This document shows positions 19,640 to 54,564 of a stretch of DNA of 64,000 bases, one piece after another (the stretch's first letter is position 1; the number at the start of each line of letters is the position of its first letter). The DNA is from an uncultured Clostridia bacterium (GTDB lineage: Bacteria; Bacillota; Clostridia; Christensenellales; Borkfalkiaceae). Position numbers and translations under genes: made by a program. The stretch spans positions 1 through 64,000 of the forward strand of contig CANQSR010000003.1 in NCBI GenBank assembly GCA_947626575.1, in the 5' to 3' direction. Below the pieces are notes generated by a model. The model saw only the letters and a list, made by a program, of their open reading frames with translations. It had not been told where the DNA came from and did not search any database.

Positions 19640-19642
19640 ATC

Positions 19643-20332: not shown

Positions 20333-20338
20333 GAAAAG

Positions 20339-20369
20339 CTCCCCTCTCAACCGAGAGGGGAGTAGCTTT
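20339..20369 (+). terminator. Terminator of the sigma-factor operon
   Basis: CTCCCCTCTC (20339-20348), AACC loop, GAGAGGGGAG (20353-20362), followed by TAGCTTTT. It lies between convergent genes and may serve both strands. Confidence 0.7.
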
Positions 20370-20433
20370 TATGATACTCTTACGGAATGCGTTCGCGCCG
20401 CGCCTTTCCGTATCGCGCAAAACAGTTTATAAA

Positions 20434-33829: not shown

Positions 33830-33901
33830 ATGAATACCTTTGAATGCGGCACGGAGACCCGACCCGAAAATCGTGCCGGATCTCCGTAAGGGGGGAGGTA
33901 G

Positions 33902-38143: not shown

Positions 38144-38162
38144 AGTTTCCTCCTTATCTTGA

Positions 38163-39113
38163 TCAGCCTTTGATCCCGCCCGCTACCACGTTGGAGATGA
38201 TCGCCTTCTGGAAACATGCAAACACGACCAGAATGGGGATGATCGCCACGAGCATACAGGCAAACATCAAAGGATAATCGCTCGTTTTTTGTATTTCTTT
38301 GGTCAAAGAGTCCAGCCCGACGGCCACCGTGGGCATGGAGGGCAAATAAATTTTGGGAGTCGCATAGTCGTTCCAATAGCCAATCGCCGTGATGATCGCA
38401 AGCGAAAGAAGCTGCGGAACGGACATGGGCAACATGATGCGGAAGAAAATGCCGAAATGGCTCGCGCCGTCGATCTGCGCCGCCTCGGCATACGTCCACG
38501 GGATGCCCTTGAAGTGTGCGTTCATGAGCAGGAACCCGAAACCGAAGCCGCTCACATAGACGAACCAAACGCCCGGAAGCGTGTTGCGCAGGCCGATCTT
38601 CCCCATGAAGCGGTACATGACGGGGAGGGAACCCACGATCGGCACGACCATGGAGATGAGTACCATGGCGAAGATGAAGCGCTTGCCCGGAAAGTCGTAC
38701 TTGGCCATGACATACGCCGTCGCGGCAGAGAAGAACACTTCGAGGAAGGTCGTCGTCGCCGTGAGCAGAATGCTGTATCCGAACATGCCGAGAAGGTTGA
38801 CGTCGCTCGCGCTCTCGCCCGACCCGACCCGTACGCGGAAGCCGATGAGCGCCTCATAGTAGTTCGCGATGTCAAATTCCGCCGGGAAGGAGAGTCCCCC
38901 GTTTCCGCTCACGACCCCCGCCGAAAATTCGAGGCGGGTCTTGAACGAGTTGAGCAGTAGCCATAGGAAAGGAATGAGCAGGGAGACGGCATAGAGTACG
39001 AAGATGCCGAATACCACCCAAAGCACGACCTTTTGCGCCGTCGTCCTCTTTTCCTTCTGTCCGCGGGCGGCCCTCTGCGGGCGGACACAGCGTTCCCTCT
39101 TCGATGCCTCCAT
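38163..39113 (-). CDS. ABC sugar importer permease (CUT1, MalG/LacG-like)
   Basis: 316 aa, six predicted membrane segments beginning at about residue 28 (VVLWVVFGIFVLYAVSLLIP). EAA loop AEAAQIDGASHFGIFFRIM. The start at 39113 overlaps the stop of the partner permease (TGATG) and has AAGGAGG; an ORF start at 39191 is rejected. Works with the preceding permease and binding protein to import oligosaccharides made by the surface GH16 enzyme. No ATPase is encoded in the locus. Confidence 0.9.
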   Translation of the reverse strand: MEASKRERCVRPQRAARGQKEKRTTAQKVVLWVVFGIFVLYAVSLLIPFLWLLLNSFKTRLEFSAGVVSGNGGLSFPAEFDIANYYEALIGFRVRVGSGESASDVNLLGMFGYSILLTATTTFLEVFFSAATAYVMAKYDFPGKRFIFAMVLISMVVPIVGSLPVMYRFMGKIGLRNTLPGVWFVYVSGFGFGFLLMNAHFKGIPWTYAEAAQIDGASHFGIFFRIMLPMSVPQLLSLAIITAIGYWNDYATPKIYLPSMPTVAVGLDSLTKEIQKTSDYPLMFACMLVAIIPILVVFACFQKAIISNVVAGGIKG

Positions 39114-40063
39114 CAGTAGTCCACCTCCTTGAAGAAATGGTTCATGATCTTTCTGCCGAGGAAGATGAACGGCACAAAGATGAGCGAACACAGGAGTCCG
39201 AACGCCGCAAGTTGCGGAACTTGCTGTTGGTTGGAATAATTGCCGAAGAGATACATCGCAATGGTACCCGTGTTAAAGTTCCCCTCCGCCGAACCCATGA
39301 GGAAGTACGCCTGCAAGTAGATGGTGAGGACGGTGTTCATGCCCACCGTGAAGAGGGTGACGATCGTCGGCCACACGAGCGGGATGACGACCTTCGTCAT
39401 CTCCTGCGTGAAGTTGATGCCTTCAAGTCTGCCCACCTCGACGAGTTCCCGGGGAATGCGCGCCATCGCGCCCGAAAGCAAGACGACGTTATACCCGATG
39501 CCCGCCCAAACGCAGTAGAAGAAGATCATCGCGGGCGTCAGAATTTTGGTGCCGAACCAGATCGGCGGATTTTCCACGCCTATCGCGCGGAGCAGCGCGT
39601 TGACCCAGCCGAAAGTATCGAAACCGAGGCGGAATGCCATCGTGAGAACGACGACGGGCAGGATCGAGGGCAGAAAGTAGATGACCTTGAAGAAGTTCTT
39701 GCCGGGTACGTCCTTATAGAGAAAGTAGGAACACACCACCGAGAGCGGCAACGTGATGCCGCAGGTCACGGGGATGTAGAGCGCCGAATTCCACAGAATG
39801 GAGGAATATCGTTCGTCGTGCAGAAATCGGTCGATCCACATCTTGTAGTTGTAGAAGATGTCATTCGGGATCTGGTAGTCGTTCACAACGGGATTATACC
39901 GCGTGAAGGAGAGCGCGATTGTCTGCGAGTTGATATACACCCACGTGATCAGAAAGTGGATCACGGGATAGGCAAGGAGTACGCAGATAAAGACGATGGC
40001 TCCCGCGCTTAAATTGTATTTCCTCTTGCGGATCTTGCGTTCTTTTCCCTTGGCGTTTTCCAT
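39113..40063 (-). CDS. ABC sugar importer permease (CUT1, LacF/YtcP partner type)
   Basis: 316 aa with six membrane segments. The EAA loop is degenerate (ELVEVGRLEGINFTQEMTKV), with Leu-Glu-Gly where Asp-Gly-Ala is common. GGGGAG is 7 bases before the ATG at 40063, so a TTG at 40084 is not needed. Overlaps the next permease gene by one base. Confidence 0.9.
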   Translation of the reverse strand: MENAKGKERKIRKRKYNLSAGAIVFICVLLAYPVIHFLITWVYINSQTIALSFTRYNPVVNDYQIPNDIFYNYKMWIDRFLHDERYSSILWNSALYIPVTCGITLPLSVVCSYFLYKDVPGKNFFKVIYFLPSILPVVVLTMAFRLGFDTFGWVNALLRAIGVENPPIWFGTKILTPAMIFFYCVWAGIGYNVVLLSGAMARIPRELVEVGRLEGINFTQEMTKVVIPLVWPTIVTLFTVGMNTVLTIYLQAYFLMGSAEGNFNTGTIAMYLFGNYSNQQQVPQLAAFGLLCSLIFVPFIFLGRKIMNHFFKEVDY

Positions 40064-40085
40064 GCGGTTTCTCCCCTCTTCCAAA

Positions 40086-41591
40086 TCAGACGATCTGCCA
40101 GCTGTCCCAATGTCCGTTGACCTCGTTCCACGCGTCGTCGAAGATCTTATTGACCGTCAGCTCGGAAGGTTTTCCATAGTTGGTGAAGCAGTCGAGATAT
40201 TTATTGCCGAGCGGATAGTCGGAGACCTTCTTATCGATGAACAGATAGCTCGTCGAATACCCCGTACTGCGGAAGGACGCCTCTCCGAGCAGTTTGAACA
40301 TATCTCTATCCCATGTAAACTTGCAATAGGGCGAATTTTCGGCGAGCAGCGTCTCGGTCTCGTACTTGAAGCCCATGAGGGTCCCTGAGACGTTCTTGGG
40401 GAAGATGAGTGTGTGTTCGGTCTCGCTCATCCATTTGAGGAATTCGATCGCGAGGTCTTTATTGCCCCTTTCGGCGACGACGATGGAATCGCGCCCCGCA
40501 ACATCGTAACAGACGCGGATAAAGTTGCCGTTTTCATCCTTTTTGGCTTCCTTGACATAGGGCGTGGGGATGAGACCGACGTCGATGCCGACCTCCTCGA
40601 TCATGTCCTTGCCGAGTTCGTTCACTGCCCATGCCGTCGCGGGCATCATCGCCGCAAGTCCGTTCAGAAAGGCGGAGTTGGCCATGAGATTGTCGAGTCC
40701 CTCGAATCCGGGATAGAGATATCTATCCTTGTTCTTCACGAACAGATCGTACCAATACTGATACGCCTGCTTGTGGTAGGGATAGACTGCGGGGTTCCAG
40801 CAATCCTTATCCTTGCCCGCATAGAGGCGGCTGAACTCCTCCTCTCCCGCGATCTGGATCCACCAATCGTGGACGAGGCTATCCCAGAGGTACCCCTCCG
40901 AACCCGCCACCAGGAAGGGCACTTTGCCCGCCGAGACGATGGTCTCGCACAGCTCTTGCAACTGCTCATAGGTCGCAGGGATCTGCCAGCCGTATTGATC
41001 GAACATCGTCTTGTTGTAGATGATGCCGCCCGCGCCTTGGATCTGCGCCACCTTGTAGTACTTTCCCTGATAGGAAGAACACGCCAAGGAAGCGGGTACG
41101 AGAAGGTCGCGGAAGCGGATGCCCGTATTGTCGTTCTCTGTGTCCGTATAGATGACGGAATCATACAGCTCCGCCGTGAGGTCGGCGAGCAACCCGCGCG
41201 CGCCGAGATACTCCCATGCGATGTCTTGGCTGATGTAGATATCGTAGGGAGACTCTTCAAGCTCCACTTCGAGCGTCGTGTTTACGTCGTTGGTGGGGTT
41301 GAGATGCACCTGTACGCCGGGATAGTCCTCTTCGAACGTCGACGCCATCTCTTCGAGCCACGCGCCGCCGTAACCGCCGTTGAAGTAGGTGATGTAGAGG
41401 TCCTTGTCCGCAAACGCGTCAGCAGACGGACGCTCGCGGAGTACCCACCCGCTGCGGTTGCTCGTATCGTTCTGGCCGAGATCGACGTCGTTGCCGAGTT
41501 CCCCGCCCGTCCATGTCCCCGCGCAGCCTGCGAACAGGGGGAGAAGCATCGCGCCCGCGAGGACGCACGCTCCGAGTTTGGATAATTTCAT
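40086..41591 (-). CDS. Sugar-binding lipoprotein of the second ABC importer
   Basis: 501-aa extracellular solute-binding protein with lipobox cysteine C23 (LFAGCAG). Mature part shows the CUT1 binding-protein order: LYITYFNGGYGGAWLEEMAS, ESPYDIYISQDIAWEYLGAR, GIIYNKTMFDQYGWQIP and AMMPATAWAVNELG. It precedes the two permease genes by 22 bases. The substrate is probably an oligosaccharide from the GH16 target; this is inferred from operon context only. Confidence 0.9.
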   Translation of the reverse strand: MKLSKLGACVLAGAMLLPLFAGCAGTWTGGELGNDVDLGQNDTSNRSGWVLRERPSADAFADKDLYITYFNGGYGGAWLEEMASTFEEDYPGVQVHLNPTNDVNTTLEVELEESPYDIYISQDIAWEYLGARGLLADLTAELYDSVIYTDTENDNTGIRFRDLLVPASLACSSYQGKYYKVAQIQGAGGIIYNKTMFDQYGWQIPATYEQLQELCETIVSAGKVPFLVAGSEGYLWDSLVHDWWIQIAGEEEFSRLYAGKDKDCWNPAVYPYHKQAYQYWYDLFVKNKDRYLYPGFEGLDNLMANSAFLNGLAAMMPATAWAVNELGKDMIEEVGIDVGLIPTPYVKEAKKDENGNFIRVCYDVAGRDSIVVAERGNKDLAIEFLKWMSETEHTLIFPKNVSGTLMGFKYETETLLAENSPYCKFTWDRDMFKLLGEASFRSTGYSTSYLFIDKKVSDYPLGNKYLDCFTNYGKPSELTVNKIFDDAWNEVNGHWDSWQIV

Positions 41592-41604
41592 TCTCCTTTC
41601 CTCC

Positions 41605-42876
41605 TTACTTTTTTGAAACGAGCTTCAAGCCGCACCGCCGCAACACGGCGCCGCCGCCCGAACGCACGATAAATTCCAGATGTTCGGTCTCCCCTTCGGG
41701 AATGCGAAAGATAGCGCTTTTCCGTTCTGCGCCGCGGAGCGTGAGTGTTTCTTCGGAATTTCCGAGAAAGACGAGCTGCGGCTCCTCGCAATTCGCCGCG
41801 CCCTTGTAGTAGGCGAGAACGATCTCCGCATCCCCGCTCTCGCTCTCCGCCGAGACTTCAAACGCAAAGCCGCCGTACTGCGAAGTCACCCGCTGCCGCG
41901 CACTGCCGCCCGCCGAGAGTATGAGCCTTTCCCCGTCGATGTGCGCCCCCTCCGTCCTCCACGAGACGATCTCCCGCCCCTTGAAGTTCTTTCGGCGCGG
42001 CGGACGGGAAAAATCCGCATCGGCGAGGTATTCATTTTCGGGGAGCGCCCGCTCTTTCAAGGCAACGCCCGTATAGAGCAGCTTGCTCTCCTTCTCGACG
42101 TTCCCCTCCAACACGGGGTCGCAATATTCGGTGATGCGTACCCAATCGAGATAGAGATATGCCGTCTCGAACTGCGGATCTCCGAGCCACGCGATGGCGT
42201 CCTGAAAGAGGCTCGCGACCCAAAACGTCGCCGTGTACCCGGGGACCGCCTCTTTGAGAAAGAGTACGGGCTTGCCGTCGAGATACCATACGACGCCCTC
42301 GTCCCCGTTCACCCTGTCCGTCCGCCATTCAAAGGCAAAGACGTGCCAAGCCCCGTCGTTGAGCGGAGGGCAGGCCACCGTCTCCGAACGGCTGTTCTTG
42401 TGCGCGCCGTCGAGATAATTCTCATAGGTCGTGCCGCTGAACTTGCGCCAATCGCCGCCGTGCGGCATTTCGATGTCGATCTCGCTGTATCTGCGGGCGG
42501 CGCATTCCTTCGCCCAATCGTTGAAATACGTCCACGCCGCACTGCACTGTCCCGCCCGCGGGGCGACCTTCATGCGCACCTCATACAGCCCCGCACCGAA
42601 CAGGCGCTTGGTGACGATGCCGCCGCCCTGCCGCTGTCTCCCGTCGGGGGCGAAGTCGCCGTTCGAACGGATGACGACGATGCCGCCCGTTCCGCCCGCC
42701 TTCGCGACTTCTCTTTCGTCCGTCGTGTACAGACAGTTCTCCTCGGCATAGCCGTTGTTGTTCTGGCTTGCCCATCTCTCGTTGAGCGCCCGCCAGACGT
42801 CGCCGCGGATGCCCTGCGAGAAGTCGTCGAAGAACACGCCCTTGACGGCGGGGTCTTTGTGCCATGCGGGTCTCAT
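41605..42876 (-). CDS. GH16-family glycosidase without signal peptide
   Basis: 423 aa. GH16 active-site motif E132-I-D134-I-E136 (YSEIDIEMPHGGDW) is intact, with an N-terminal FFDDFSQGI and a C-terminal beta-sandwich after residue 300. It is a paralogue of the surface GH16 encoded directly upstream (shared GQCxAxWTYFN, LNDGAWHxFAFEWRT, YLDWVRITEY) but has no signal peptide or lipobox. The ATG overlaps the upstream stop (ATGA), so no exported start is available. It may cut imported oligosaccharides in the cytoplasm or be released some other way. Confidence 0.82.
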   Translation of the reverse strand: MRPAWHKDPAVKGVFFDDFSQGIRGDVWRALNERWASQNNNGYAEENCLYTTDEREVAKAGGTGGIVVIRSNGDFAPDGRQRQGGGIVTKRLFGAGLYEVRMKVAPRAGQCSAAWTYFNDWAKECAARRYSEIDIEMPHGGDWRKFSGTTYENYLDGAHKNSRSETVACPPLNDGAWHVFAFEWRTDRVNGDEGVVWYLDGKPVLFLKEAVPGYTATFWVASLFQDAIAWLGDPQFETAYLYLDWVRITEYCDPVLEGNVEKESKLLYTGVALKERALPENEYLADADFSRPPRRKNFKGREIVSWRTEGAHIDGERLILSAGGSARQRVTSQYGGFAFEVSAESESGDAEIVLAYYKGAANCEEPQLVFLGNSEETLTLRGAERKSAIFRIPEGETEHLEFIVRSGGGAVLRRCGLKLVSKK

Positions 42877-44393
42877 ACGAGATACAGCTCCACCGAATAG
42901 ACGCGCGCGACCGTGTCCGCATCCGTTTCAAACACGACGCGGAGCGTGTTCGTGCGCACATTCGCGATCTCGTATGTGAGTTCCTTCGTGATGACCATAT
43001 TGTGCTTGAACGAGAGAGCCTCGGACGTTTCCATGCTCACGATGCCGTAAAGTCCTTCGAGGCGGGCGCGCAGTTCTCCCTCGCCCTCTATCCTCTCCGC
43101 CCGCACAACAAGGCGCAGCTTGTGTCCGATGTATTTGCTGTCAATGCTCTGGAAAATTCTGTTCCCGCCCTTCACGAGCAGGTAGTTCACATAGTCCTCC
43201 GTCGTGCCGCGGATCGCCTCCGAGCCGACCGCAAGCCCGTCCGCCTGCCAGACATAGGGCTTATCCGTGCTGCCGCGCTCCAAGCGGCGGAAATCCCCGT
43301 TCGCAACATAGTTTGTTTGGGGAATGGCGCCGTCGCCGAGGTCGCGGAAGCTCCATTTCTCCTTGGCGGGGTCGTATGTCCCCGCCGTATATTCGTCCGT
43401 CACGGGGTCGTCGTACTCGGTGATGCGCACCCAATCGAGATACATGTAGGCAGTATCGAAATTCGGAACGCCCAACCACGACGGAATGTCGGGAAAATGT
43501 GTGCCGATATTGAAGGGCGCCGTGTACACGGGAACGCTCGTCGTGAGCTTCTGCACGGCGTGACCGTCGATATACCAGATGATGCCCGTATCGTTTTCCG
43601 CCGTGCGCCACTCGAACGCGACGGTGTGCCATGCGCCGTCGTTGAGACTCAGGTTGCCGAGTCCAACCTTCTCGTAGTCGATCTTCGAGGAGGTTTGCTC
43701 CATCTGCGTCTTGCTGATGTATTTGCTGTATGTCGTCGCCGTGAACTTGCGGAAATCGCCGCCTTCGGGCAACTCGATGTCGATCTCGCTATACTTGCTC
43801 TCCGAAAGGTCGTCTGCGGAGGTGAGGTTTGGCGTGCCGTTGAAGTACGTCCAAAGCGCCGTACACTGTCCCTGCCGGGGAAGCACTTTTATCCTCGCCT
43901 CGTATTTCCCCGCGCCGAAATCGTTGCGGGTCGTGATGACCGCCCCCTTATAGGGGTCCTCAGAATAGCCGCCGTTTGCCTGAAAGACGATGATCCCGCC
44001 CGTGGCGCCCGCCTCTTCCACACGCGCCGCATTCGTCGAATAGGAGATGTTCTTGCTCGTAACGCCGTTGTTATTTGCCTTATCGAGCCCCCAACCGTTG
44101 TCGTCCGAAGTCCAATTGTTGAGGTCGATCCCCTCCGAAAAGTCGTCATAAAAGGTCGCTTTTTGCACGGGAGCCGTGTTCCAGCCGTAAGTACGGGGCG
44201 TCTCCCCCGTGTTCCCTCCGGGGGTCTCGCCGCCGGACGGCGTGAGCGCTTCTCCGCCGATGTCGCACAGCCCGTCGCTATTCTCGTCGGGATGCGTCGT
44301 GTGTTCAGCCGGCATCCCGCTGAATGAACAAGCCGAAAAGCCCATCGCCGCGGCGAGAGCCAACGCGACCAAAGCCCAAAACCTTCTCTTCAT
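42873..44393 (-). CDS. Surface GH16-family endo-glycosidase lipoprotein
   Basis: 506-aa lipoprotein (C22, GFSACSF) with the same Asp-rich tag as the 1413-aa lipoprotein (HTTHPDENSDGLCDIGGEAL). The GH16 domain covers about 68-340 and has E203-I-D205-I-E207 (KYSEIDIELPEGG). A C-terminal sandwich (about 370-506) may bind glycan. GH16 enzymes cut beta-1,3/1,4-glucans, agars, or poly-N-acetyllactosamine in mucins; the neighbouring GH20, NagA and NagB make a GlcNAc-containing glycan plausible. 23 bases behind nagB. Confidence 0.87.
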   Translation of the reverse strand: MKRRFWALVALALAAAMGFSACSFSGMPAEHTTHPDENSDGLCDIGGEALTPSGGETPGGNTGETPRTYGWNTAPVQKATFYDDFSEGIDLNNWTSDDNGWGLDKANNNGVTSKNISYSTNAARVEEAGATGGIIVFQANGGYSEDPYKGAVITTRNDFGAGKYEARIKVLPRQGQCTALWTYFNGTPNLTSADDLSESKYSEIDIELPEGGDFRKFTATTYSKYISKTQMEQTSSKIDYEKVGLGNLSLNDGAWHTVAFEWRTAENDTGIIWYIDGHAVQKLTTSVPVYTAPFNIGTHFPDIPSWLGVPNFDTAYMYLDWVRITEYDDPVTDEYTAGTYDPAKEKWSFRDLGDGAIPQTNYVANGDFRRLERGSTDKPYVWQADGLAVGSEAIRGTTEDYVNYLLVKGGNRIFQSIDSKYIGHKLRLVVRAERIEGEGELRARLEGLYGIVSMETSEALSFKHNMVITKELTYEIANVRTNTLRVVFETDADTVARVYSVELYLV

Positions 44394-44416
44394 ATTTTTC
44401 CTCCTTCGACCGGGAT

Positions 44417-45184
44417 CTAACCCTTCATGAGCAACTTCGCACTCTCGACGTCCGTAAACATCATCGCGTGCGGGTGGCGGCGCAAAATCGTCGCGGGGAC
44501 TGCTTGATCGATGGGTCCGCGCATGGTGCGATACACCGCGACCGCCTTCTTGTCCGTCGGAACGACGCAGAACATGTACTTGGCGGAAATGAGCGTGGGG
44601 ATCGTGAGCGTGACCGCATACCGCGGAACTTCCTGCAAGGTGTCGAAGGTCTTGTCGTTCACCTGTTGGCGGCGGCAGACCTCGTCGAGCCCCACGAGCT
44701 TGATGACCTTTTTATCCGCAAAGTCTGCGACTTTGGGGTCGTTGAATGCAATATGCCCGTTTTCCCCTATCCCCAGACATACGATGTCGATGGGGTGCGC
44801 TTTGAGGAGTTCCTCATACCGCTTGCAGATCTCCTCCGTGTCCCCCGTTCCGATGTAATAGACCGCTTTCAGGGGAACCCTGTCAAACAGCGCCGAGGCG
44901 AGATAGTGGGCAAAACTCTTGGGACTGTGTTCGCCAAGCCCCACGTACTCATCCATATGAAAGGCGGTCACGCGGGACCAATCGAGTCCCTCCTCGCGCG
45001 CCAGATATTTCAGAATATCGTTCTGTGAGGGCGCGGCGGCAAAGACCATGTTGATCTCCTCCTGCGCGCGCAAGAGTTCCCGCATCTTCTCTGCGACCGC
45101 CTTTGCGGCATACCGCCCCATCTCGTCCCGATCGGGAAATACCTTGCAATTCAGCAAATCCGCATTAAATTCAGCCACAAACAT
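44417..45184 (-). CDS. nagB: Glucosamine-6-phosphate deaminase
   Basis: 255 aa. Motifs AAAPSQNDIL, VTAFHMDEYVGL and VCLGIGENGHIAFNDP are typical of NagB. It converts glucosamine-6-phosphate to fructose-6-phosphate and ammonia. First gene of the 15-gene minus-strand array, divergent from the AraC regulator. GGAGG is 12 bases upstream of the chosen ATG, longer than usual. Long in-frame extensions upstream (to 45691) run antisense to the AraC gene and are rejected. Confidence 0.92.
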   Translation of the reverse strand: MFVAEFNADLLNCKVFPDRDEMGRYAAKAVAEKMRELLRAQEEINMVFAAAPSQNDILKYLAREEGLDWSRVTAFHMDEYVGLGEHSPKSFAHYLASALFDRVPLKAVYYIGTGDTEEICKRYEELLKAHPIDIVCLGIGENGHIAFNDPKVADFADKKVIKLVGLDEVCRRQQVNDKTFDTLQEVPRYAVTLTIPTLISAKYMFCVVPTDKKAVAVYRTMRGPIDQAVPATILRRHPHAMMFTDVESAKLLMKG

Positions 45185-45290
45185 GGATGTGTAGATCCTC
45201 CGGTTACCCGATTTTTTCATCATTATAGCATAAAGAGCCGCCGCTGCATTATAAAATATTGCTGAAAAATATAAACATATTGACATCTTC

Positions 45291-45319
45291 TTGACTTTCC
45301 CGATCGTCCCTGATATAAT
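45291..45319 (+). promoter_or_regulatory. Sigma-A promoter of the AraC gene
   Basis: TTGACT (45291-45296), 17 bp, TATAAT (45314-45319) with an extended TGA before it. For the divergent nagB transcript a TATAAT-like box is seen near 45220 on the minus strand, without a convincing -35, as expected for an activated promoter. Confidence 0.8.
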
Positions 45320-45346
45320 TGCTTTGGTGCAAAGAGGTAACAAATT

Positions 45347-46198
45347 ATGAAAAATATCGCATTCATGCCCACGAAAAATAAGAAAATTGAGGTGCAATAC
45401 AAGGTCAAAGCCCTTGAAGAAACCTATTCCATGCACATTCATAACGATTACGAAATCTATATGAGCCTGTGCAATAATAATAAATTCTGCGTCGGGCATA
45501 AGATCTACGACGTGAACAAGAACGACGTCTTTCTCTTCAACAACACGGACGTGCATAAGATCAACGTATCCGACCCCGCGAATTACAGCCGCTACGTCGT
45601 CATGTTCTCCCCCTCTATCTTTTCGGAAGCGGAACCCGAACTTTCCGACCTTTTGCAGTGTTTCGACGGCAAAAACCCCAACTGTTGCCACAAGCTCTCC
45701 CTCTCAGACGAACAGGCGGCGGACTTCCTGTTCATTCTGCGGAAGATGACGGATTGCGAGTGCGAGGGCGTCTCCAACTCCTTCTTGAAACTTCGCCTGT
45801 ATCTTTCGCAACTTCTGCTGCTCGTTCAGGATATCCGCCGCGCCGCGCCCGCCATCGCGTCCGTCTCGGATACCGAAGATCATCGGCTCAACGAGATCAT
45901 GGGCTTCTTGCGCGAACGCTGCACTGATACGATCACCCTTGAAGAGCTGAGCGGAAAATTTTTCCTGAATAAATACTACCTGTGCCGCATGTTCAAGAAC
46001 AAACTCGGCTTCGGCATCGGGGAATACATCGAATCCTGCCGCCTCAGCAAGGCGATCCCCATGCTTCGGGAGGGAATGCCCGTTTCGGCGGTCGCCCGCA
46101 ACACGGGCTTTTGCAGTGACTCCTACTTCATCTCCATCTTCAAAAAATACCTCGGCATGTCGCCGAAAAAATATCTTCGCGGAGGGGCGGAGGCATGA
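45347..46198 (+). CDS. AraC-family transcriptional regulator
   Basis: 283 aa. An N-terminal cupin-like sensor (MHIHNDYEIYMSLC) is followed by a C-terminal AraC double helix-turn-helix (ITLEELSGKFFLNKYYLCRM; VSAVARNTGFCSDSYFISIF; KKYLGMSPKKYL). Being divergent from nagB, it most likely activates the 15-gene glycan operon in response to a sugar. It overlaps the next gene by four bases. Confidence 0.9.
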   Translation: MKNIAFMPTKNKKIEVQYKVKALEETYSMHIHNDYEIYMSLCNNNKFCVGHKIYDVNKNDVFLFNNTDVHKINVSDPANYSRYVVMFSPSIFSEAEPELSDLLQCFDGKNPNCCHKLSLSDEQAADFLFILRKMTDCECEGVSNSFLKLRLYLSQLLLLVQDIRRAAPAIASVSDTEDHRLNEIMGFLRERCTDTITLEELSGKFFLNKYYLCRMFKNKLGFGIGEYIESCRLSKAIPMLREGMPVSAVARNTGFCSDSYFISIFKKYLGMSPKKYLRGGAEA

Positions 46199-47084: not shown

Positions 47085-47230
47085 CATCCAATGCGAGTCG
47101 CAAAATTATTTGCGGAAAGTAGGGGAAGTACGGTGAAAACCCGTCGCAACAGTCATTACGGTGAAAGTCCGATTGCCTACCCGTTGGAAACACGTTACTT
47201 TTCTCGGGCAATGGAGGAATAAAAGTAGCG
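47085..47230 (+). ncRNA. Probable cobalamin riboswitch aptamer
   Basis: Leader of the DUF4430/ECF-S pair. Conserved elements visible: GGGGAAG (47113-47119), CGGTGAAAACCCG, GTCGCAACAG and a second GGTGAAAGTCC segment, followed by TTGCCTACCC and a possible pairing CGTTACTTTT / AAAAGTAGCG just before the terminator. The downstream transcobalamin-like lipoprotein and vitamin transporter support cobalamin as ligand. Aptamer limits are approximate. Confidence 0.7.
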
Positions 47231-47238
47231 TATTTTTT

Positions 47239-47266
47239 GTGCGCCCGAAAACGGGCGCACTTTTTT
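47239..47266 (+). terminator. Riboswitch expression-platform terminator
   Basis: GTGCGCCCG (47239-47247), AAAA, CGGGCGCAC (47252-47260), TTTTTT. It is 2 bases before the AGGAGG of the next gene, so it must be bypassed for expression. Confidence 0.85.
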
Positions 47267-47280
47267 ATAGGAGGTAACTT

Positions 47281-47733
47281 ATGAAACACACTGTGAGATT
47301 TGTCGCGCTCTTCGTTGCGGCGATCACGGCATTCGCGGGATTGATCCTTTCCGCCTGCGGAGGCAATGACGCAGATGCAACGCTTCTTGAAAGCAGCGAA
47401 ACGCTCGTTGTGATTCAAGCAAACACAACGAGCGGAAGTATGCAAGACGCTATGGCAAAATTCAAGGAGACGGGCGAAATCACCTACGAGGGTTCGGAGA
47501 GCGAATATGGGTTTTATCTTACGTCGGTCAACGGCTACACCCCCGACGCTTCGAAAAACGAATTTTGGGCCGTCTATACCACGCTGGGAGAATATGAGGG
47601 CATCCCCTATTCGAGCGCGGAATACGGCATTTACGATTATAAAGGCGCCTCGTGCGCAAGCGCCTCTTACGGGATATCGGGACTGCCGATGGTGGAAGGA
47701 TATCTCTATATTCTGACGATTTCGACGTATTGA
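47281..47733 (+). CDS. DUF4430 (transcobalamin-like) surface lipoprotein
   Basis: 150 aa with lipobox cysteine C26 (LILSACGG). The mature domain has the DUF4430 pattern (YGFYLTSVNGYTPDASKNEF, then WAVYTT and a closing VEGYLYILTI). DUF4430 corresponds to the C-terminal domain of transcobalamin, so it may capture cobalamin or a related corrinoid outside the cell. AGGAGG is 7 bases before the ATG. Its TGA overlaps the start of the transporter gene. Confidence 0.8.
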   Translation: MKHTVRFVALFVAAITAFAGLILSACGGNDADATLLESSETLVVIQANTTSGSMQDAMAKFKETGEITYEGSESEYGFYLTSVNGYTPDASKNEFWAVYTTLGEYEGIPYSSAEYGIYDYKGASCASASYGISGLPMVEGYLYILTISTY

Positions 47734-48419
47734 TGAACGCAAAGAAAATCGCGGTGTGCGCGGTGATGGTCGCGCTATTGATTGCCGTACAGTTTACATT
47801 AAGTTTTGTATCCGGGGTAGAGCTTGTAACCGTGCTCCTGCTCTGCTTTTGCTATACCTTCGGCGTAGCCTGCGGAATGCTTGTCGCCACCGCATTTTCT
47901 TTGATCCGCTGTCTTTTGTTTGGCTTCATGCCGAACGTCGTTTTGCTCTATCTCATCTATTACAACTTATTCGCGCTTCTGTTCGGAAGTTTGAGAAAGC
48001 ATAAACTTCCCGTTTGGGTATGCCCCATCTTGCTTGCTCTGCTCGCGGGGGGAAGCGCCTACTTTGCGATTGCGGGAATCCCAATCAGCATCTTATATCA
48101 AAACAAGATCCGCATCATGTTTTGGATCCTGTTCGGGATCGCCGCGGCGCTACTTCTCTCCTATATCGTCCTCATTGTATGCCATAAAAAAAGCAAGGAG
48201 CTCGCTTCGGTCACGGCCCTTGCTGCGTTTTGCACGGTATTGTTTACATTGCTCGATGATGTCATCAGCCCGCTCATCCTCGGCTACGGGATGGAAGCAG
48301 CACTTGCGTATTTCTACACGAGCTTCCTTGCCATGCTGCCGCAGACGATCTGCGCTTCCGTCAGCGTTTTCCTACTGTTTCATCCGATCAAGCACGTTTT
48401 AAGTAAAATAAGATTATAA
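47733..48419 (+). CDS. ECF-transporter S component, probably for cobalamin
   Basis: 228-aa integral membrane protein with about six hydrophobic segments. It has the S-component N-terminal pattern (AVCAVMVALLIAVQFTLSFV) and the inner YTFGVACGMLVATAFSLIR. Specificity for cobalamin is inferred from the riboswitch and the DUF4430 partner. It would need the shared EcfA/EcfT module from elsewhere in the genome. Start at 47733 is chosen for the TGATG overlap; the longer ORF from 47652 overlaps the lipoprotein. Confidence 0.8.
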   Translation: MNAKKIAVCAVMVALLIAVQFTLSFVSGVELVTVLLLCFCYTFGVACGMLVATAFSLIRCLLFGFMPNVVLLYLIYYNLFALLFGSLRKHKLPVWVCPILLALLAGGSAYFAIAGIPISILYQNKIRIMFWILFGIAAALLLSYIVLIVCHKKSKELASVTALAAFCTVLFTLLDDVISPLILGYGMEAALAYFYTSFLAMLPQTICASVSVFLLFHPIKHVLSKIRL

Positions 48420-48555
48420 CAGAAAAAATTTCATAAACCATCCCGATTTCAGCTTCTGTTGATGCGGTCCATAGGCGTTGAAAATGAGAAAATCGTGCGA
48501 ATGTTCGACGAATTTCCTCGCCGAAAAAATTTTTTAAGAAAAACGGTTTTTTCTA

Positions 48556-48584
48556 TTTACAAACGCGGATTTTTGTTATATAAT
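48556..48584 (+). promoter_or_regulatory. Orphan sigma-A promoter
   Basis: TTTACA (48556-48561), 17 bp, TATAAT (48579-48584). It is followed by GGAGG (48604-48608) and ATG at 48619, but the frame closes after 23 codons. Nothing else is recognised in 48420-48555. Confidence 0.6.
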
Positions 48585-48618
48585 ACAGAAAAACCGATTT
48601 CATGGAGGAATCCGCGGG

Positions 48619-48690
48619 ATGAAAAAACGCATCGGCAGGTCTCAATTTTACGATCATGACCGCTCCTCCCTCTCGACGGACTGCGTGTAG
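48619..48690 (+). CDS. 23-codon ORF or truncated gene start
   Basis: ATG 11 bases behind GGAGG and below a good promoter; encodes MKKRIGRSQFYDHDRSSLST... and stops at 48690. Its 3' half is antisense to the end of the GxGYxYP-LacI gene. It could be a real micropeptide, a gene cut off by a rearrangement, or only the leader of an antisense RNA. Confidence 0.3.
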   Translation: MKKRIGRSQFYDHDRSSLSTDCV

Positions 48691-51125
48691 ACGGGGTCGG
48701 AATGCAATAGCACGTTGCGCCGCCCGCCGTCGTCCTCGATCTCGTCGATGAGCATACCCGTGGCCGTGCGCCCGATGACGGCGTAATCCTGCTCCGCGTA
48801 ACTGAGCGCGGGCGTGAAACTGCCGTGCTGCATGGACCTGCCGAGCGAGAATACGCCGACGTCGCACCCGATCCTAAGGCCCGCCTCGGCCGCCGCGCGG
48901 TAGACGCCGGCGGCGATGTGTTCGTTCGCCGTGATGAAGAGCGTATCGCGCGCCATGACCTTCTGCGCGATGGCGTACCCCTCCTCTTCCGAACTGTTCT
49001 TGCTCTCGAATACGTGGGCGGCAGGGTCGATGCCCGCTTCGGCGCACACCTTGGAAAAGCCGCTCTCGCGGTCGCGGGAGATGGTCAGCCGCCTGTCGCT
49101 GTTGATGAGATACACCGTCTTGTAGCGCGGGGCGAGCGTGCGGCCGACTTCCTCCACGAGGGCGACGTTATCGATATCCACCGAGCGGAATTCGAGATTC
49201 TCGTCGATGTGACCGATGACGACGCAGGAAATGCTGTCATGTTCGATCTGTTTGAGGCGTTCGTCATCGATACAGGGCGCCATGAGGACGGCGCCGTCGA
49301 TGGGCGCCCTGCCGTGGCGGAGCTTCTCGGCGAGTTTGGCGCCGTCGGGATGATAGTAGACGAGGAGGGAATACCCGCGCTCGGCGGCCTCCCTGAGGCA
49401 GGCGATGATGAGTTTGGAATAGAACGTGCGCTCCAAGTCCTCGTTGCTCTCCAAGATGAGCGCAACGATGTTGGCCTTCCTGCTCGAAAGGCCGGAGGCA
49501 TAGAAGTTGGGGTGGAAGTTGAGTTCCTTGCACGCTTCGAGTACCTTCTTGCGGATCTCCTCGCTCACGAAACGCTTACCGGAGAGGACGTTGGAGACGG
49601 TGGACTTTGCCACCTGCGCCCGTTCGGCGACGTCCATGATCTTGACGGTGCGGCGGAACTTGCCGAGATTGCGCTTGACGAGTTCGATGAGTTCATCCGC
49701 ATACACCAGCTCGATGTGTTCGCCTAACCCCGCAACGACGTAATCGAGGGCACCCATGTCGATGGTCCACGGGTGTACGTTGATGACAGTGTACCCCTCT
49801 TCGCTGTCCGGCGCGACCTGCCGCGCGTTGATCTTGTCGATGAAGGCGTCGAGGAATTCCTTGGTCGCGCGGCCGGGCTTGTCGCTCGGATGCCACAGCG
49901 AATAGCGCACGGAGATGAAGGGCTTGTTATCCGACCAGAAGATCTTGCCGCGTCCGCCGCGGTAGTGGTCGGGGTCGAGTTCCCAGATGCCCCCCGCGAT
50001 GTTCTCATAGCGCGTGAACGCCGCAAGGCGGTCCGAGACGAGCTTCCTATCCTCGGTGAGGTAGACGTTATCGAGCATACACAGCACCTTTTGGTCGGAA
50101 TCGGCCATGGCGCGCGCCGTGAGGGCGGCGAAGCCGTCGAGATGCTCGCGCGGATAGGAGAGGCAGTTGGCGTACCCCACGCCCGAAACGCCGCTGATGA
50201 AGTAATCCATCTTGACGCCGCCGTAAATGCGTTCGGCCGCCGCGGGGCAGAGCTGTTGCAAAGAGGGCGAGAACGTCCAATTCATCTTGTAATCGGAGCG
50301 GCTCCGCTGGCGTTGGCCGAAGATGCCCTCCGTGGCGAAATCGCGCTCCAACCACTGCACGTTGTCGCCGTCGCTGACGACGATGGCCACATAGTGCTTG
50401 TTCTCCGCGACGGGCGCGCGGCGGGTGCGCTGGCGCAGCTTGTGCGGCGAGACGCCGAAATAGCTGTGGTTGCACGACCAATCCGTGGGGATGGCGAACT
50501 TCCCCGCGCGGGAGATGTCCTCGATGAAGGGGATCTCGTTATCGTTCCACCCATAGACGGGGGCGTTGGGTTCCAGCCACGCGAGGACTTCGGCGCGGAA
50601 GGCCCGCTCCTCCTCGTTCTCCGCGGTGAAGATGCACGCCCAGCGGTTCGCGATGGCGAAATCGCGGAGCATAAGGCGGAAATTCCCCTCCCGCACCACC
50701 TGATGCACGAGGGCCGTGCGCGAAAGACGGTCCTTGACCTCCGTCCAGACGGCGCGCTGGCGTTGGGCGCGGGTCCCCGTCACGTGCGCCAAATCGCGCA
50801 CGGTGGGAAGCCCGATGGCGTTGACGCGCGCTTCCAGCGTCCGCGGGACGCCGAGGTCGTCGCCCGCCGCCGAGAGCATACAGGCAAGGTTGATGCCGAT
50901 GTCGTTGGGCGCGAGGTCATAGACCGCCGCCCCCGAAAATTCCGAGAGATAGGTCGCGAGGAGCATCCAGAGATCGGCCTCCGTCGCCTCCTCCGTGAGA
51001 TACTCCCTGTAATTGTCCGTGTCGATGAACACTTTGTAGCCCTTGCGGTTGAGGATGCCCTGCACGAACTGCGCCAGAGCCTGTTCATCCTCGCGCATCT
51101 TGCTTTGTGAAAGTACGTAGACCAT
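48654..51125 (-). CDS. GxGYxYP-domain protein fused to a LacI-type regulator
   Basis: 823 aa in one open frame, no signal peptide. Residues 1-490 match the GxGYxYP family: HYVAIVVSDGDNVQW (245-258) and the name-giving motif, here SGVGYANCLSYP (314-325). At 494 a complete LacI protein starts: helix-turn-helix (VKIMDVAERAQVAKSTVSNV), hinge, then a sugar-sensor domain to the end. LacI proteins normally begin with the helix-turn-helix. An internal ATG at MDVAERA has no ribosome site. Gap to the upstream DUF4965 gene is 3 bases. It may regulate its own operon; the first half could sense or process the inducer. Confidence 0.8.
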   Translation of the reverse strand: MVYVLSQSKMREDEQALAQFVQGILNRKGYKVFIDTDNYREYLTEEATEADLWMLLATYLSEFSGAAVYDLAPNDIGINLACMLSAAGDDLGVPRTLEARVNAIGLPTVRDLAHVTGTRAQRQRAVWTEVKDRLSRTALVHQVVREGNFRLMLRDFAIANRWACIFTAENEEERAFRAEVLAWLEPNAPVYGWNDNEIPFIEDISRAGKFAIPTDWSCNHSYFGVSPHKLRQRTRRAPVAENKHYVAIVVSDGDNVQWLERDFATEGIFGQRQRSRSDYKMNWTFSPSLQQLCPAAAERIYGGVKMDYFISGVSGVGYANCLSYPREHLDGFAALTARAMADSDQKVLCMLDNVYLTEDRKLVSDRLAAFTRYENIAGGIWELDPDHYRGGRGKIFWSDNKPFISVRYSLWHPSDKPGRATKEFLDAFIDKINARQVAPDSEEGYTVINVHPWTIDMGALDYVVAGLGEHIELVYADELIELVKRNLGKFRRTVKIMDVAERAQVAKSTVSNVLSGKRFVSEEIRKKVLEACKELNFHPNFYASGLSSRKANIVALILESNEDLERTFYSKLIIACLREAAERGYSLLVYYHPDGAKLAEKLRHGRAPIDGAVLMAPCIDDERLKQIEHDSISCVVIGHIDENLEFRSVDIDNVALVEEVGRTLAPRYKTVYLINSDRRLTISRDRESGFSKVCAEAGIDPAAHVFESKNSSEEEGYAIAQKVMARDTLFITANEHIAAGVYRAAAEAGLRIGCDVGVFSLGRSMQHGSFTPALSYAEQDYAVIGRTATGMLIDEIEDDGGRRNVLLHSDPVYTQSVEREERS

Positions 51126-51128
51126 CGT

Positions 51129-53141
51129 TTATTTTCCTCTGTAAAATGCTTCGAGCAGAACGGCAAAACAGCCGCCCTGCACCGTTCTGTTCATGAATCC
51201 CATCGTCCTGCCCGTGACCGTATCATACCAATCCGAGAAGGGGATGCGGTCGGGCGCCTCGCAAAGATACTTCTCCACGGGGGCGAGCATCGCGCGCTTC
51301 TTTTGGGGATCGCCGCAAAGCGCGGCCGTCCACACGATCCAATCGGACTTGGTGTACGCCGCGCGCCCGTCGAGCGGCGTGCCGTATCTGTTCATCCGCG
51401 CAAGATACGCATCCGCCTCGCGCTCGCACAGCGACTGCGGGAACAGCCCCAAGCCGAGAACTTTATCGAAGAGCAAGTTGTATTTGAGGCTGTAACCGTC
51501 GCCGTCCCATACGAGCGGAAGCTGGCCGCGCCCCTCCGCCTGCGCGCAGATCTCTGCGGCAAATTTTTCCGCTATGGCGCGATAGGTGGCACCCATGTCC
51601 GCGTTCCCCGTCTCAAAACACAGCGAAGCAAAGCACGCGAGCGCGACCGCCGCCTTGATGGAAAGGTTGAGATTGTTGCCGAGATGCCCCGCAAAGTCGT
51701 CGGTGCAGAGCTGTTTGAAGGGCCGCAGGCCGTGCGCGGCGAGGTACTCCGCCCAGCGGGAAATGAGGCCGAAATACTTGCGCACGAGCGCAAGGTCGCC
51801 GTCCGCACGGCGGCACGCCTCCATCAGGATGAGAACGTTCGCGCTCTCCTCCACGGGCATCTGGTTTTCGAAGCTGTAAACCGCGTTTCCGTCCGGCAGC
51901 AGCCAGAAGGGGAAGCGCGTCTCCCGCCCGTCGCACGCGATGAGTCCCTTCACGCGCGGGTCGGCGTCGTCCCACTTGGTGCCGTAGACCTGCCCCGTGC
52001 AGTGGGGGTAAGTCCCCGCGTCGTGCGGGGCGAACGGGAAGGGCCATGCGGGCAGGCTCGCAAAGTGCAGGATGGGGCGGAGCATCCCGCGTACCAATTC
52101 GGGCGCATACAGGAGATAGAGCGGCGCCGAGGGATAGCTGACGTCCACCGTGGCGATGCACCCGTTGGAACGGCATTCCTTGGAGAGGAAGAGCGGCCCG
52201 TCCGGCCCGCCGATGAGCTTGTGCGCGCCCACCGACTGCCTGAGCGCGGCGCACAGGATGCGGTAGCCCGTCTCTCCCAAATCCGCCGAACGCGCCCTGA
52301 GGTCCGCATCGAAGGCGGCGAGCTTGGCGGCTACTTTGGGTTCCTCCCGCCACGCCTCCTCGATGGCCTCGAACACGGTGTGCGTCTGCATGTAGTAACC
52401 CTTGCGGATCTCGCCGAAATAATCAATGCTCCCCGTGTCGTCGAAGGCGATGGTGAAGAACCCCTGTTTTTCACGGGAAGATGCCGCCGCGAAGCGGTCT
52501 CCTTCGGACATGGGGTCCCCGTCGGGTGCGGGGTCCTCTCCGCCGCGAAGCCATTCGCCCAATGCGGCGGCGCCTACATAGAAGGCGCGCCGCCCCGTGA
52601 TGTAGTAATATCCTTGGTCGGCGCCGTAGTCGTCGCAATCGTTGGAGAGGCGCAACTGCCGCGCCAGCCCCACCACCGCGCTCTCGACGCCCGCGTGTGC
52701 GATGACGCCCCCGCGCATCCTGCGGCAGGGGCAATCGTCGTTGCGGGCGATCTCCTCTCCGGCGGCGAACTGAACTTCGACGTCCTCCGCGCCCTCTACC
52801 TCATATTTGAGGTAACAGACGGGCTGCGAAAGAAGCGAAAGATCGTCGGGGACGAGCGGCGAGACGAAGCTGACGCGCAACGTCGCCTTGCCCGCGCGGA
52901 AGGTGTAGTCGGTGGTGAACGCCGAGACGGAGAGTTGCGTCTGCTCCGCCCGTGCGACCCCTTCGGGTGTGCCGAGGAACGCATACGGAGTCCCGCCGAC
53001 GCGCACGACGCCATAGATGCGCTTGGCCGCGCCCGACCAGTGCATGACGTCGGCCTCGTTGAGGACGTCGCGCTTTGCCCAAAAGGAAAAATACGGGTCT
53101 TTGACGAACAAGGGATAGGCGGGCAATAACCGTTCTGCCAT
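51129..53141 (-). CDS. DUF4965/glutaminase-A-like family protein
   Basis: 670 aa, cytoplasmic (no signal). The layout matches the DUF5127-DUF4965-DUF1793 family: PLFVKDPYFSFWAKRDVLNE at the start, WSGAAKRIYG, then an alpha/alpha-barrel with DVSYPSAPLYLLYAPELVRG, YPHCTGQVYG, DDFAGHLGNNLNLSIKA and the C-terminal TKSDWIVWTAAL. Fungal relatives were called glutaminase A, but bacterial members sit in glycan loci and may be glycosidases. AAGGAG precedes the ATG. First gene of a two-gene operon with the GxGYxYP-LacI fusion. Confidence 0.8.
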   Translation of the reverse strand: MAERLLPAYPLFVKDPYFSFWAKRDVLNEADVMHWSGAAKRIYGVVRVGGTPYAFLGTPEGVARAEQTQLSVSAFTTDYTFRAGKATLRVSFVSPLVPDDLSLLSQPVCYLKYEVEGAEDVEVQFAAGEEIARNDDCPCRRMRGGVIAHAGVESAVVGLARQLRLSNDCDDYGADQGYYYITGRRAFYVGAAALGEWLRGGEDPAPDGDPMSEGDRFAAASSREKQGFFTIAFDDTGSIDYFGEIRKGYYMQTHTVFEAIEEAWREEPKVAAKLAAFDADLRARSADLGETGYRILCAALRQSVGAHKLIGGPDGPLFLSKECRSNGCIATVDVSYPSAPLYLLYAPELVRGMLRPILHFASLPAWPFPFAPHDAGTYPHCTGQVYGTKWDDADPRVKGLIACDGRETRFPFWLLPDGNAVYSFENQMPVEESANVLILMEACRRADGDLALVRKYFGLISRWAEYLAAHGLRPFKQLCTDDFAGHLGNNLNLSIKAAVALACFASLCFETGNADMGATYRAIAEKFAAEICAQAEGRGQLPLVWDGDGYSLKYNLLFDKVLGLGLFPQSLCEREADAYLARMNRYGTPLDGRAAYTKSDWIVWTAALCGDPQKKRAMLAPVEKYLCEAPDRIPFSDWYDTVTGRTMGFMNRTVQGGCFAVLLEAFYRGK

Positions 53142-53197: not shown

Positions 53198-53226
53198 ATT
53201 TTATCATATGTTGGAGAAAACGTCAA
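53198..53226 (-). promoter_or_regulatory. Promoter of the DUF4965 / GxGYxYP-LacI operon
   Basis: Minus strand TTGACG (53226-53221), 17 bp, TAAAAT (53203-53198). Two direct TAACATT repeats at 53177-53183 and 53194-53200 (17 bp apart, one over the -10 box) are operator candidates for the fused LacI domain. Confidence 0.75.
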
Positions 53227-53404
53227 CAAACTTGAACAGAAAAAACGGTTTTCCGCGGAAATATTTTGTTCGGGTCGGATTTTTTTGTTTTTTCGCCCCT
53301 CCCATCCCCACCGCCCCTCCCCGCCCGTAAAAACAAGTTTTCCAAACCGTCTCCCGCGGGGATACGGGGATGGTCATCTCAGAACATACGAAAACAACAT
53401 GAGA

Positions 53405-53496: not shown

Positions 53497-54495
53497 TTAC
53501 TTCAAAGCTCGGTTATTTTCCGCAAGTTCGATATATTCTTTTAACTTCTTTTGAAGCAACGTTTTATCGATGAGTTTGAGTTTATATTCCGAAACCATCG
53601 TAGGCGAAAGAGAACGGCTCAATGCGTATTCCGCCACCTCATCGTCCTTTTTGGCGCAGAGAATGACGCCGACGCTCGGATTTTCATTCGGTTTTTTCAC
53701 TTCGCGGTCCAATGCTTCGAGATAGAGGTTCATCTTACCGACGTATTCCGGCTTGAATTCATCGATTTTGAGCTCAAATGCCACGAGGCAGGAGAGGCCG
53801 CGGTGATAAAACAACAGGTCGATATAGTAGTCGTGTCCGCCCACCTGCAAGCGATATTCCTCGCCGATAAACGAAAAGTCCTTGCCGATCTCCAAGATAA
53901 AGTTTTTCAAGTTCTGAACGATCGACCTTTGCAAATCTTTTTCGCTGACGACTTCGGGGACATCGAGAAACTCCAATGTATAGGTATCGAGAAAAGCGTT
54001 TGACGTGCTTCGCTTTGATTCGGCAATCGCGGGAGTCGCCGGTTTTTGAGAGAGCATATAACGCTCATAGTAAGCGCTGTCGATCTGGCGGGCAAGTTCG
54101 CGTGCGCTATACCTTTCTTTTGCGCATAAGGCAATGTAAAAATAGCGCTCTTCGGCAGACTTGCAAGAAGACATTATCTTGATATGGTTTGACCAACTCA
54201 ATTGTGTCAACAGTGTTGACACTTTTTCATCCTCACCGTACAGCTCATAGAATTGACGCATACGATACAGTCCGCGGCGGGTAAATCCTCTGAGTTCGGG
54301 ATAATTTTGGGCAAAGAAGTCGGCAAGGCCTTCCACATAAGCGTCTCCGTAAGCCGCATCGCGGGAGTTTTCGGACACATATTTGCCGATCTGCAAATAC
54401 ATTCCGATGAGTTCCTCGTTTACCTTATAAAACGCGCGCTCCCGTGCCGACTGAATGATTTTTACGATTTCGGAATAACTTTTATCCGGTACCAT
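53497..54495 (-). CDS. YhcG/DUF1016 family PDDEXK nuclease
   Basis: 332 aa. The N-terminal DUF1016 helical domain (SYSEIVKIIQSARERAFYKV, YGDAYVEGLADFFAQNYPEL, GFTRRGLYRMRQFY) precedes a C-terminal PD-(D/E)xK fold (FIGEEYRLQVGGHDYYIDLL, CLVAFELKIDEFKPEYVGKM) with D and ExK visible. Homologues occur with restriction or mobile loci, but here it stands alone. ATG at 54495 has GGGGGA 5 bases before it; a start at 54552 would lie only about 6 bases from the predicted transcript start. Possible role in defence or DNA processing. Confidence 0.85.
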   Translation of the reverse strand: MVPDKSYSEIVKIIQSARERAFYKVNEELIGMYLQIGKYVSENSRDAAYGDAYVEGLADFFAQNYPELRGFTRRGLYRMRQFYELYGEDEKVSTLLTQLSWSNHIKIMSSCKSAEERYFYIALCAKERYSARELARQIDSAYYERYMLSQKPATPAIAESKRSTSNAFLDTYTLEFLDVPEVVSEKDLQRSIVQNLKNFILEIGKDFSFIGEEYRLQVGGHDYYIDLLFYHRGLSCLVAFELKIDEFKPEYVGKMNLYLEALDREVKKPNENPSVGVILCAKKDDEVAEYALSRSLSPTMVSEYKLKLIDKTLLQKKLKEYIELAENNRALK

Positions 54496-54564
54496 AGTAT
54501 CCCCCACGGTTTTGACGGTTTCCATGCCGTCGGAAAAATCAAAACCTTGCATTCCTTTGGCTAT

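Follow-up and report, generated by a model that had tools for sequence, protein, structure and literature searches.

Proteins of the GxGYxYP family (PF14323; BT2193, PDB 3SGG) are, in the sections of PMC4071793 covered here, proposed glycoside hydrolases whose activity is predicted for the whole family and whose specificity is unassigned. The same sections find their genes within a locus responsive to alpha-mannan and close to those for GH92 and GH38, and name phytase as the sole catalytic domain fused to GxGYxYP. LacI regulators, in the part of PMC4052901 used here, bind motifs that for the most part are palindromes of even length centred on CG; of the regulators studied there, 72% (943) are autoregulated. 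Here we describe a gene that joins these two families, located within 64,000 nucleotides of DNA from an uncultured Clostridia bacterium of the Borkfalkiaceae (contig CANQSR010000003.1, positions 1 to 64,000, of assembly GCA_947626575.1), hereafter the window. In this gene, a predicted glycoside hydrolase of the GxGYxYP family continues directly into a LacI-type regulator.

The fused gene and its relatives

Among the open reading frames of the window, the fused gene runs uninterrupted from ATG to stop over 823 codons (48654-51125, reverse strand). Its product, with a computed mass of ~92.5 kDa, orders its Pfam domains as GxGYxYP (residues 1-489), LacI helix-turn-helix (HTH; 496-540) and sensor (556-805). 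The earlier note on this DNA had described just such a frame, with a GxGYxYP protein running into a whole LacI regulator whose HTH is internal, and both the open frame and the Pfam matches bear it out, save that the HTH was placed at 494, two residues before the Pfam start. The regulator half contains PF00356 nearly in full (profile positions 2-46 of 46), followed by Peripla_BP_1 (PF00532, residues 556-801) and Peripla_BP_3 (PF13377, residues 671-805), with scores of 58.2, 34.8 and 74.3 bits respectively, all above cut-off. Its recognition helix, KSTVSN, is invariant in 13/13 rows of the LacI alignment, from which, as from the palindrome scan below, L085/L038 were excluded. However, the N-terminal HTH that typifies the LacI family in the part of PMC4052901 used here is lacking, as this domain begins at residue 496 of 823. 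Hence the whole protein is classed as a fusion, and not as an ordinary LacI regulator.

The GxGYxYP half matches PF14323 (GxGYxYP_C) at residues 242-483, over profile positions 1-241 of 242 (146 bits against a cut-off of 27), and PF20958 (GxGYxYP_N_3rd) at residues 151-222 (37.2 bits against 24.4), whereas the other GxGYxYP N-terminal Pfam models gave no match in the fused protein at E 0.001. Aligned with BT2193, whose residue numbering was taken from PMC4071793 with a chain offset of 21, the protein retains the putative catalytic triad as E197/D252/D254. Glutamate occupies the Glu197 position in 120/120 listed proteins from the search described below (the near-copy P0002 included), and the E/D/D/N pattern is kept in 119/120, with P0017 having V for D252. 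Because these putative catalytic residues are intact, we take this half for a predicted enzyme in preference to a ligand domain; hence, of the enzyme- or ligand-like roles offered by the earlier note, the first is favoured and the second is less supported. No obvious signal sequence was found by eye in the fused protein.

Structure prediction supported each half with unequal success. In the full-length model, which covers 3SGG over residues 1-490, the GxGYxYP half was good, with most ten-residue blocks above 85, but the LacI half was poor, with 206 residues under 50, and so no statement is made on the relative placement of the halves. We think the poor LacI half probably reflects LacI rows being badly placed in the mixed alignment. 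Modelled separately with the linker (residues 476-823), the LacI half gave a model with a mean pLDDT of 85.7, and matched PurR, CcpA and LacI, with a TM of 0.84 by target for PurR. The linker itself was modelled as a coil between helices at 477-487 and 496-503, with pLDDT under 50 at 488-490.

The same fusion was sought in related sequences, and found. A search of ~5.8 billion proteins gave 234 matches, 120 of them listed; two of those listed, P0002 and P0003, have a LacI part, and the other 118 are GxGYxYP proteins of 455-542 aa. P0002 (823 aa; a cluster of 6 sequences; contig 7404) has three differences from the window protein and the same junction, while P0003 (821 aa; contig of 2664 bases) is 74% identical overall, at 77.5% in the GxGYxYP half and 68.9% in the LacI half. 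A query with the LacI half returned just these two (proteins of ~453-1440 aa; 7994 candidates scored). A midpoint-rooted maximum-likelihood tree, built from the GxGYxYP portions of 45 proteins (44 from the list of 120, plus the window protein), joined the window protein to P0003 in one clade, with support of 100/100, nested among unfused proteins. The next of kin was the group of P0008, P0013 and P0015 (83/92), P0013 being the protein of locus L076. The two fused lineages are, in this phylogeny, a single clade inside unfused relatives. Closer to home, the fused gene is the sole PF14323 match of its own 1.9-Mb draft genome; a class-wide sample of 391 genomes gave no further GxGYxYP match at E 1e-60, and the sole other same-genus match in a family search of 398 genomes at E 1e-20 (G044) had 30% identity.

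Across the junction, the window protein and P0002 share the sequence NLGKFRRTVKIMDVAERAQ, where P0003 has NLGKARRTVKIVDVAERAQ. The stop is absent, and at the position of the LacI start several relatives have MKK where the window protein has FRR, which leaves the window gene without the original LacI start. Third-position GC is high throughout the junction (0.72-0.93 in ten 120-nt windows). The fusion of a complete GxGYxYP protein to a complete LacI-type regulator is real.

The unfused gene pair, a shared palindrome and the operon

Both halves were compared with 50 loci (L007, L008 and L028-L075, where L028 is the window itself and L033 lies inside L007 and was counted once), and 12 distinct unfused orthologous loci were defined (L007, L008 and L076-L085; GxGYxYP identity of ~47% or more). 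In all 12, the GxGYxYP gene is followed immediately, on its own strand, by an orthologous LacI gene (41-61% identity), as against a LacI match in 1/36 loci with less similar GxGYxYP genes (at most 40% identity; 1.5-kb flanks, some cut by contig ends). This contrast suggests a working relation, and by Rosetta-stone logic the fusion suggests that GxGYxYP and LacI also act jointly where relatives make them as separate proteins. The earlier note had reasoned that the fusion would fall if all relatives encoded two genes, which is nearly the case, given the 12 unfused loci, but P0003 is fused, and the genes are adjacent in all 12. The single positive among the 36 is L069 (G675), where an open frame of 1052 aa encodes a more distant GxGYxYP protein and a LacI-type gene (31% identity; E 1e-8) starts ~77 nt beyond it; hence the pairing may predate the subfamily of the window.

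Spacing within the pairs is tight, with a 4-nt ATGA overlap in four of the twelve (L007, L030, L031, L032) and gaps of 2 to 50 nt in the other eight. At L076 (P0013), the nearest relative with DNA, an in-frame TAA stop is followed by a 6-nt gap before the LacI gene. The junction lost on the way to the fusion may have been either an ATGA overlap or, as in L076, a TAA in frame with a gap of 6 nt behind it. The GxGYxYP frame is interrupted in L037, one of the twelve, and cut by the contig end in L038; at L084 7068-8623 (G159), two stops are reported in the GxGYxYP frame beside an open LacI neighbour.

The pairs also share a palindrome, AGAAAANCGNTTTTCT, which has the even length, the central CG and the position near regulated promoters expected of a LacI motif, and is the predicted operator. 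It occurs with at most two mismatches in 17/20 promoter regions of related loci, and in each of these 17, none of 100 shuffles matched as well. These 20 regions came from 11 of the 12 unfused loci, with bounds set by hand from mechanical open reading frames, and the set was changed after a first reading: the L082 GH92 region was moved, L083_dn was added, and the window's own region was removed. When the window was kept out of the matrix, the two highest-scoring 16-mers in the 64 kb were those at 48537-48552 and 53239-53254, one on each flank of the operon (Table 1). Across 200 shuffled windows, 18.6 bits were reached by seven sites, and 26.2 by no site; when the sequence was shuffled locally, the score at 53239 was reached in 10/2000 and that at 48537 in 0/2000. 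Across the bacterium's own genome, sites with at most two mismatches numbered 13, against 11 in the control, and 48537 was the sole match with at most one. The TAACATT repeats (53177, 53194), which the earlier note had proposed as the binding site, were rejected, being present in 1/20 of the relatives' promoter regions as against 17/20 for the palindrome; one of them overlaps a -10-like hexamer.

The fused gene lies 3 nt downstream of the other gene of its operon, a candidate hydrolase of gtaA type. This is the operon partner named in the earlier note, which was right as to its presence but called it DUF4965, where Pfam gives GtaA_6_Hairpin, DUF5127 and DUF4964. Proteins with DUF4964, DUF5127, DUF4965 and DUF1793 may be glycoside hydrolases, according to part of PMC9668830. 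A gene of the same type, 52% identical, precedes the unfused pair in L076. The GtaA-like protein has no sequence relative in the PDB, and the idea that it is a distant GH92 was set aside after a comparison of very shallow profiles (2 against 3 sequences) gave a probability of 0.9% over 29 columns.

Promoter-like sites accompany both predicted operators; for that of the operon, the consensus scan found three sites in the region against 1.8 expected. The operator-like scores at 48587..48603 are within the range of shuffled windows. The forward-strand unit at 48537-48690 may be what remains of a rearranged operon, or else may produce an antisense RNA under repressor control. In those relatives that were read, the genes beyond the palindrome-bearing region that follows lacI share the direction of lacI, whereas the forward-strand promoter-like site of the window is antisense to the fused gene.

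Table 1. Features of the fused gene, its operon and flanking sites (window coordinates)
Feature	Position	Strand	Basis
Fused gene, GxGYxYP protein and LacI-type regulator	48654..51125	-	823 codons, open frame, Pfam, P0002 and P0003
GxGYxYP half, residues 1-489, predicted glycoside hydrolase	49659..51125	-	
Glu197, equivalent of putative proton donor Glu272 of BT2193	50535..50537	-	alignment with PMC4071793 numbering
Asp252 and Asp254 (DGD), equivalents of Asp331/Asp333 of BT2193	50364..50372	-	alignment
Junction, residues 488-496 (GKFRRTVKI)	49638..49664	-	stop and LacI start codon of relatives absent
LacI helix-turn-helix, residues 496-540, recognition helix KSTVSN	49506..49640	-	PF00356
Internal in-frame ATG, codon 497	49635..49637	-	sole near ATG for a separate LacI; ribosome-site match 3/6
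LacI sensor domain, residues 556-805	48711..49460	-	PF00532 556-801, PF13377 671-805
First operon gene, GtaA_6_Hairpin/DUF5127/DUF4964 protein, 670 aa, candidate hydrolase	51129..53141	-	Pfam
Operon promoter-like site TTGACG-17-TAAAAT	53198..53226	-	consensus scan only
Predicted operator upstream of operon promoter	53239..53254	.	18.6 bits, second-best in window
Predicted operator just 3' of fused gene	48537..48552	.	26.3 bits, best in window
Promoter-like site TTTACA-17-TATAAT (11/12), towards 3' end of fused gene	48556..48584	+	consensus scan only
Degenerate second operator-like site after forward-strand promoter	48587..48603	.	10.7 bits (48588), 6.8 bits (48587)
23-codon frame after GGAGG, antisense to 3' end of fused gene; remnant or leader	48619..48690	+	sequence

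Proposed regulation and competing explanations

The explanation that we favour, at a probability of about 0.55, is that the predicted glycoside hydrolase-LacI fusion represses its own two-gene operon through the palindrome, until a sugar handled by its enzyme half releases the repressor. The fused protein would repress the gtaA-type gene and itself from 53239-53254, and the promoter-like site at 48556-48584 from 48537-48552. Its GxGYxYP half would hydrolyse an imported oligosaccharide in the cytoplasm, probably of alpha-mannoside type, and this sugar or its product would act as the inducer, causing the LacI half to let go of the DNA. Tethering would keep enzyme and repressor at a 1:1 ratio, and the inducer would be made beside its sensor, as in trigger enzymes. 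It is possible, as the earlier note proposed, that the fused regulator senses the product of its operon partner. A bolder version, which we regard as speculative and rather unlikely, is an enzyme-gated repressor, in which the glycosidase half ahead of the HTH processes an imported oligosaccharide and passes its product to the LacI sensor of the same chain, such that DNA binding reports the flux of sugar and not only its level; in relatives, the two separate proteins would assemble into the same complex untethered.

The suggested substrate comes from the neighbours of the unfused pairs. GH38 adjoins the pair in four loci (L007, L008, L079, L080) and GH92 in three (L081, L082, L083), as assigned by Pfam, such that an alpha-mannosidase-family gene adjoins it in 7/12. 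These neighbours therefore provide a concrete substrate class to test for this GxGYxYP subfamily. Phosphomannose isomerase (L076, L007), hexokinase (L080, L007) and an ABC binding protein (L080, L077) were also found near pairs, in each case in 2/2 frames tested.

Several observations weigh against the favoured explanation. The palindrome was first chosen by eye in the same regions in which it was then counted; hence the 17/20 is not independent, and the scan of the window is the fair test. The region upstream of gtaA in L076 is without it (six mismatches), while upstream of GH92 in L081 and L082 the sites have three mismatches, a level that 9 and 4/100 shuffles respectively equalled. Within the window, the 5' site is the weaker, at 18.6 bits, and the best of 50 shuffled windows reached 19.6. 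A part of 489 residues that ends so close to the HTH (~8 residues ahead of it) could interfere with DNA binding, and since a single fused clade is known, the fusion may bring no benefit. As to the substrate, no mannosidase neighbour was seen in 5/12 unfused loci: that of L076 is GtaA, L078 and L084 have other genes in the stretch examined, and L077 and L085 are cut off before this can be judged. The window's own genome has no GH38 or GH92 family match, although both families were detected in control genomes; searches of it for the L076 isomerase and the L080 binding protein, which lacked a positive control, likewise gave no match. Therefore the mannoside theme may not hold in the window, which appears to carry a stripped version of its relatives' locus.

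The main rival is a neutral accident, in which two tightly packed and probably co-transcribed genes lost a stop and a start, leaving the halves independent. Adjacency or overlap makes such a fusion easy, the fused sequences found are one clade, and both halves look intact, yet the fusion has been kept in two lineages that are only 74% identical, and the specificity of the pairing in close loci suggests a working relation; hence we judge this account unlikely, while giving it more weight than any of those below. That the GxGYxYP half is instead a second, sugar-binding sensor, gating the HTH from its N-terminal side, would suit its position just ~8 residues before that domain and the unproven substrate and activity of GxGYxYP proteins in the covered sections of PMC4071793. 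However, retention of the putative catalytic triad, and the alpha-mannosidase-family neighbours of the free-standing relatives in 7/12 loci, make such a sensor improbable.

The remaining two rivals concern the junction. A separate LacI protein could still be made by proteolysis, or by internal initiation at codon 497, such that the functional regulator would be unfused. The in-frame ATG at 49637 has an AGGAGG match of 3/6 in the 20 nt upstream, little worse than the 4/6 of the fusion start (the gtaA start has 5/6, and the differences are small), but a start there would lose the VKI arm that relatives keep, and P0003, read at the protein level, has Val in place of this Met; we consider this route very improbable. 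Least probable of all is an assembly or sequencing error that joined two genes. The window does come from a draft genome of 35 contigs, but the same junction in P0003 and P0002 makes an error unlikely. Furthermore, the next stops in the other two frames are 28 and 32 codons off, and codon 497 is the sole near ATG; hence one frame shift at the junction would not yield two tidy genes, and a one-base error would leave neither start nor stop there.

Surrounding genes and comparison with described systems

The operon region looks like an accessory segment with one edge at 48409, as the nearest relative found at the locus (L106) has 86% DNA identity over 47100-48409, and does not continue into the operon. 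Beside this segment are two small forward-strand genes without a Pfam match (47281-48419), and a DUF1016/YhcG PDDEXK nuclease gene (53497-54552, reverse strand) lies directly upstream of the operon. A reverse-strand sugar cluster at 30789-45691 holds two GH16 genes, GH20, an amidohydrolase, an ABC binding protein and two permeases, with an AraC-type regulator opposite to it (45347-46198); the frame at 44417-45691 within this cluster resembles a glucosamine-6-phosphate deaminase. In relatives, large and probably secreted proteins follow palindrome-bearing regions at L008 18617-21541 and downstream of the pair in L077, L081 and L083, that of L008 containing a second GxGYxYP match (18842-20437). 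It is possible that these are outer members of the same regulon.

Both halves of the fused protein belong to known families, and it is their combination that sets the protein apart. Relative to GxGYxYP proteins, it differs by its fusion to a regulator and has no obvious signal sequence by eye; the domain-architecture section of PMC4071793 does not include the predicted order of glycosidase, HTH and sensor, and the covered text of that paper has no word beginning with LacI. More widely, no fusion of a LacI regulator to a glycoside hydrolase is described in the titles or abstract openings of the open-licence papers listed, a scope that leaves most subscription papers outside it. With LacI regulators such as PurR, CcpA and RbsR (PMC4052901, in part), it shares the HTH, the sugar-binding-type domain and the even palindrome with a central CG as predicted operator; however, the HTH of these regulators is N-terminal, whereas here it is internal, after 495 residues, and fused to a predicted enzyme. 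The unfused pairs of L007, L008 and L076-L085 have the same orthologous parts, in the same order, with the same promoter palindrome (11/12 loci scanned), but as two genes and with a GH38 or GH92 neighbour in 7/12, where the window has one gene, a GtaA-like candidate hydrolase as its neighbour, and a draft genome in which these families were not detected. Together, the fusion and the gene pair link a GxGYxYP subfamily with a single regulator and a single predicted operator and also, in those seven loci, with alpha-mannosidase-family genes.

Trigger enzymes such as PutA, BirA and NadR, as treated in part of PMC8249747, are the nearest functional idea, since the window fusion likewise has its DNA-binding part on the same polypeptide as a predicted enzyme; for the fusion, both catalysis and substrate-dependent binding are predictions. 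The fusion therefore offers a way to ask if an enzyme can gate a repressor directly. In trigger enzymes, a bare DNA-binding domain has generally been added to an enzyme; the fusion in the window instead holds a whole LacI regulator with its own ligand-sensing domain, and is hence a natural case of an entire ligand-sensing repressor joined to a predicted enzyme.

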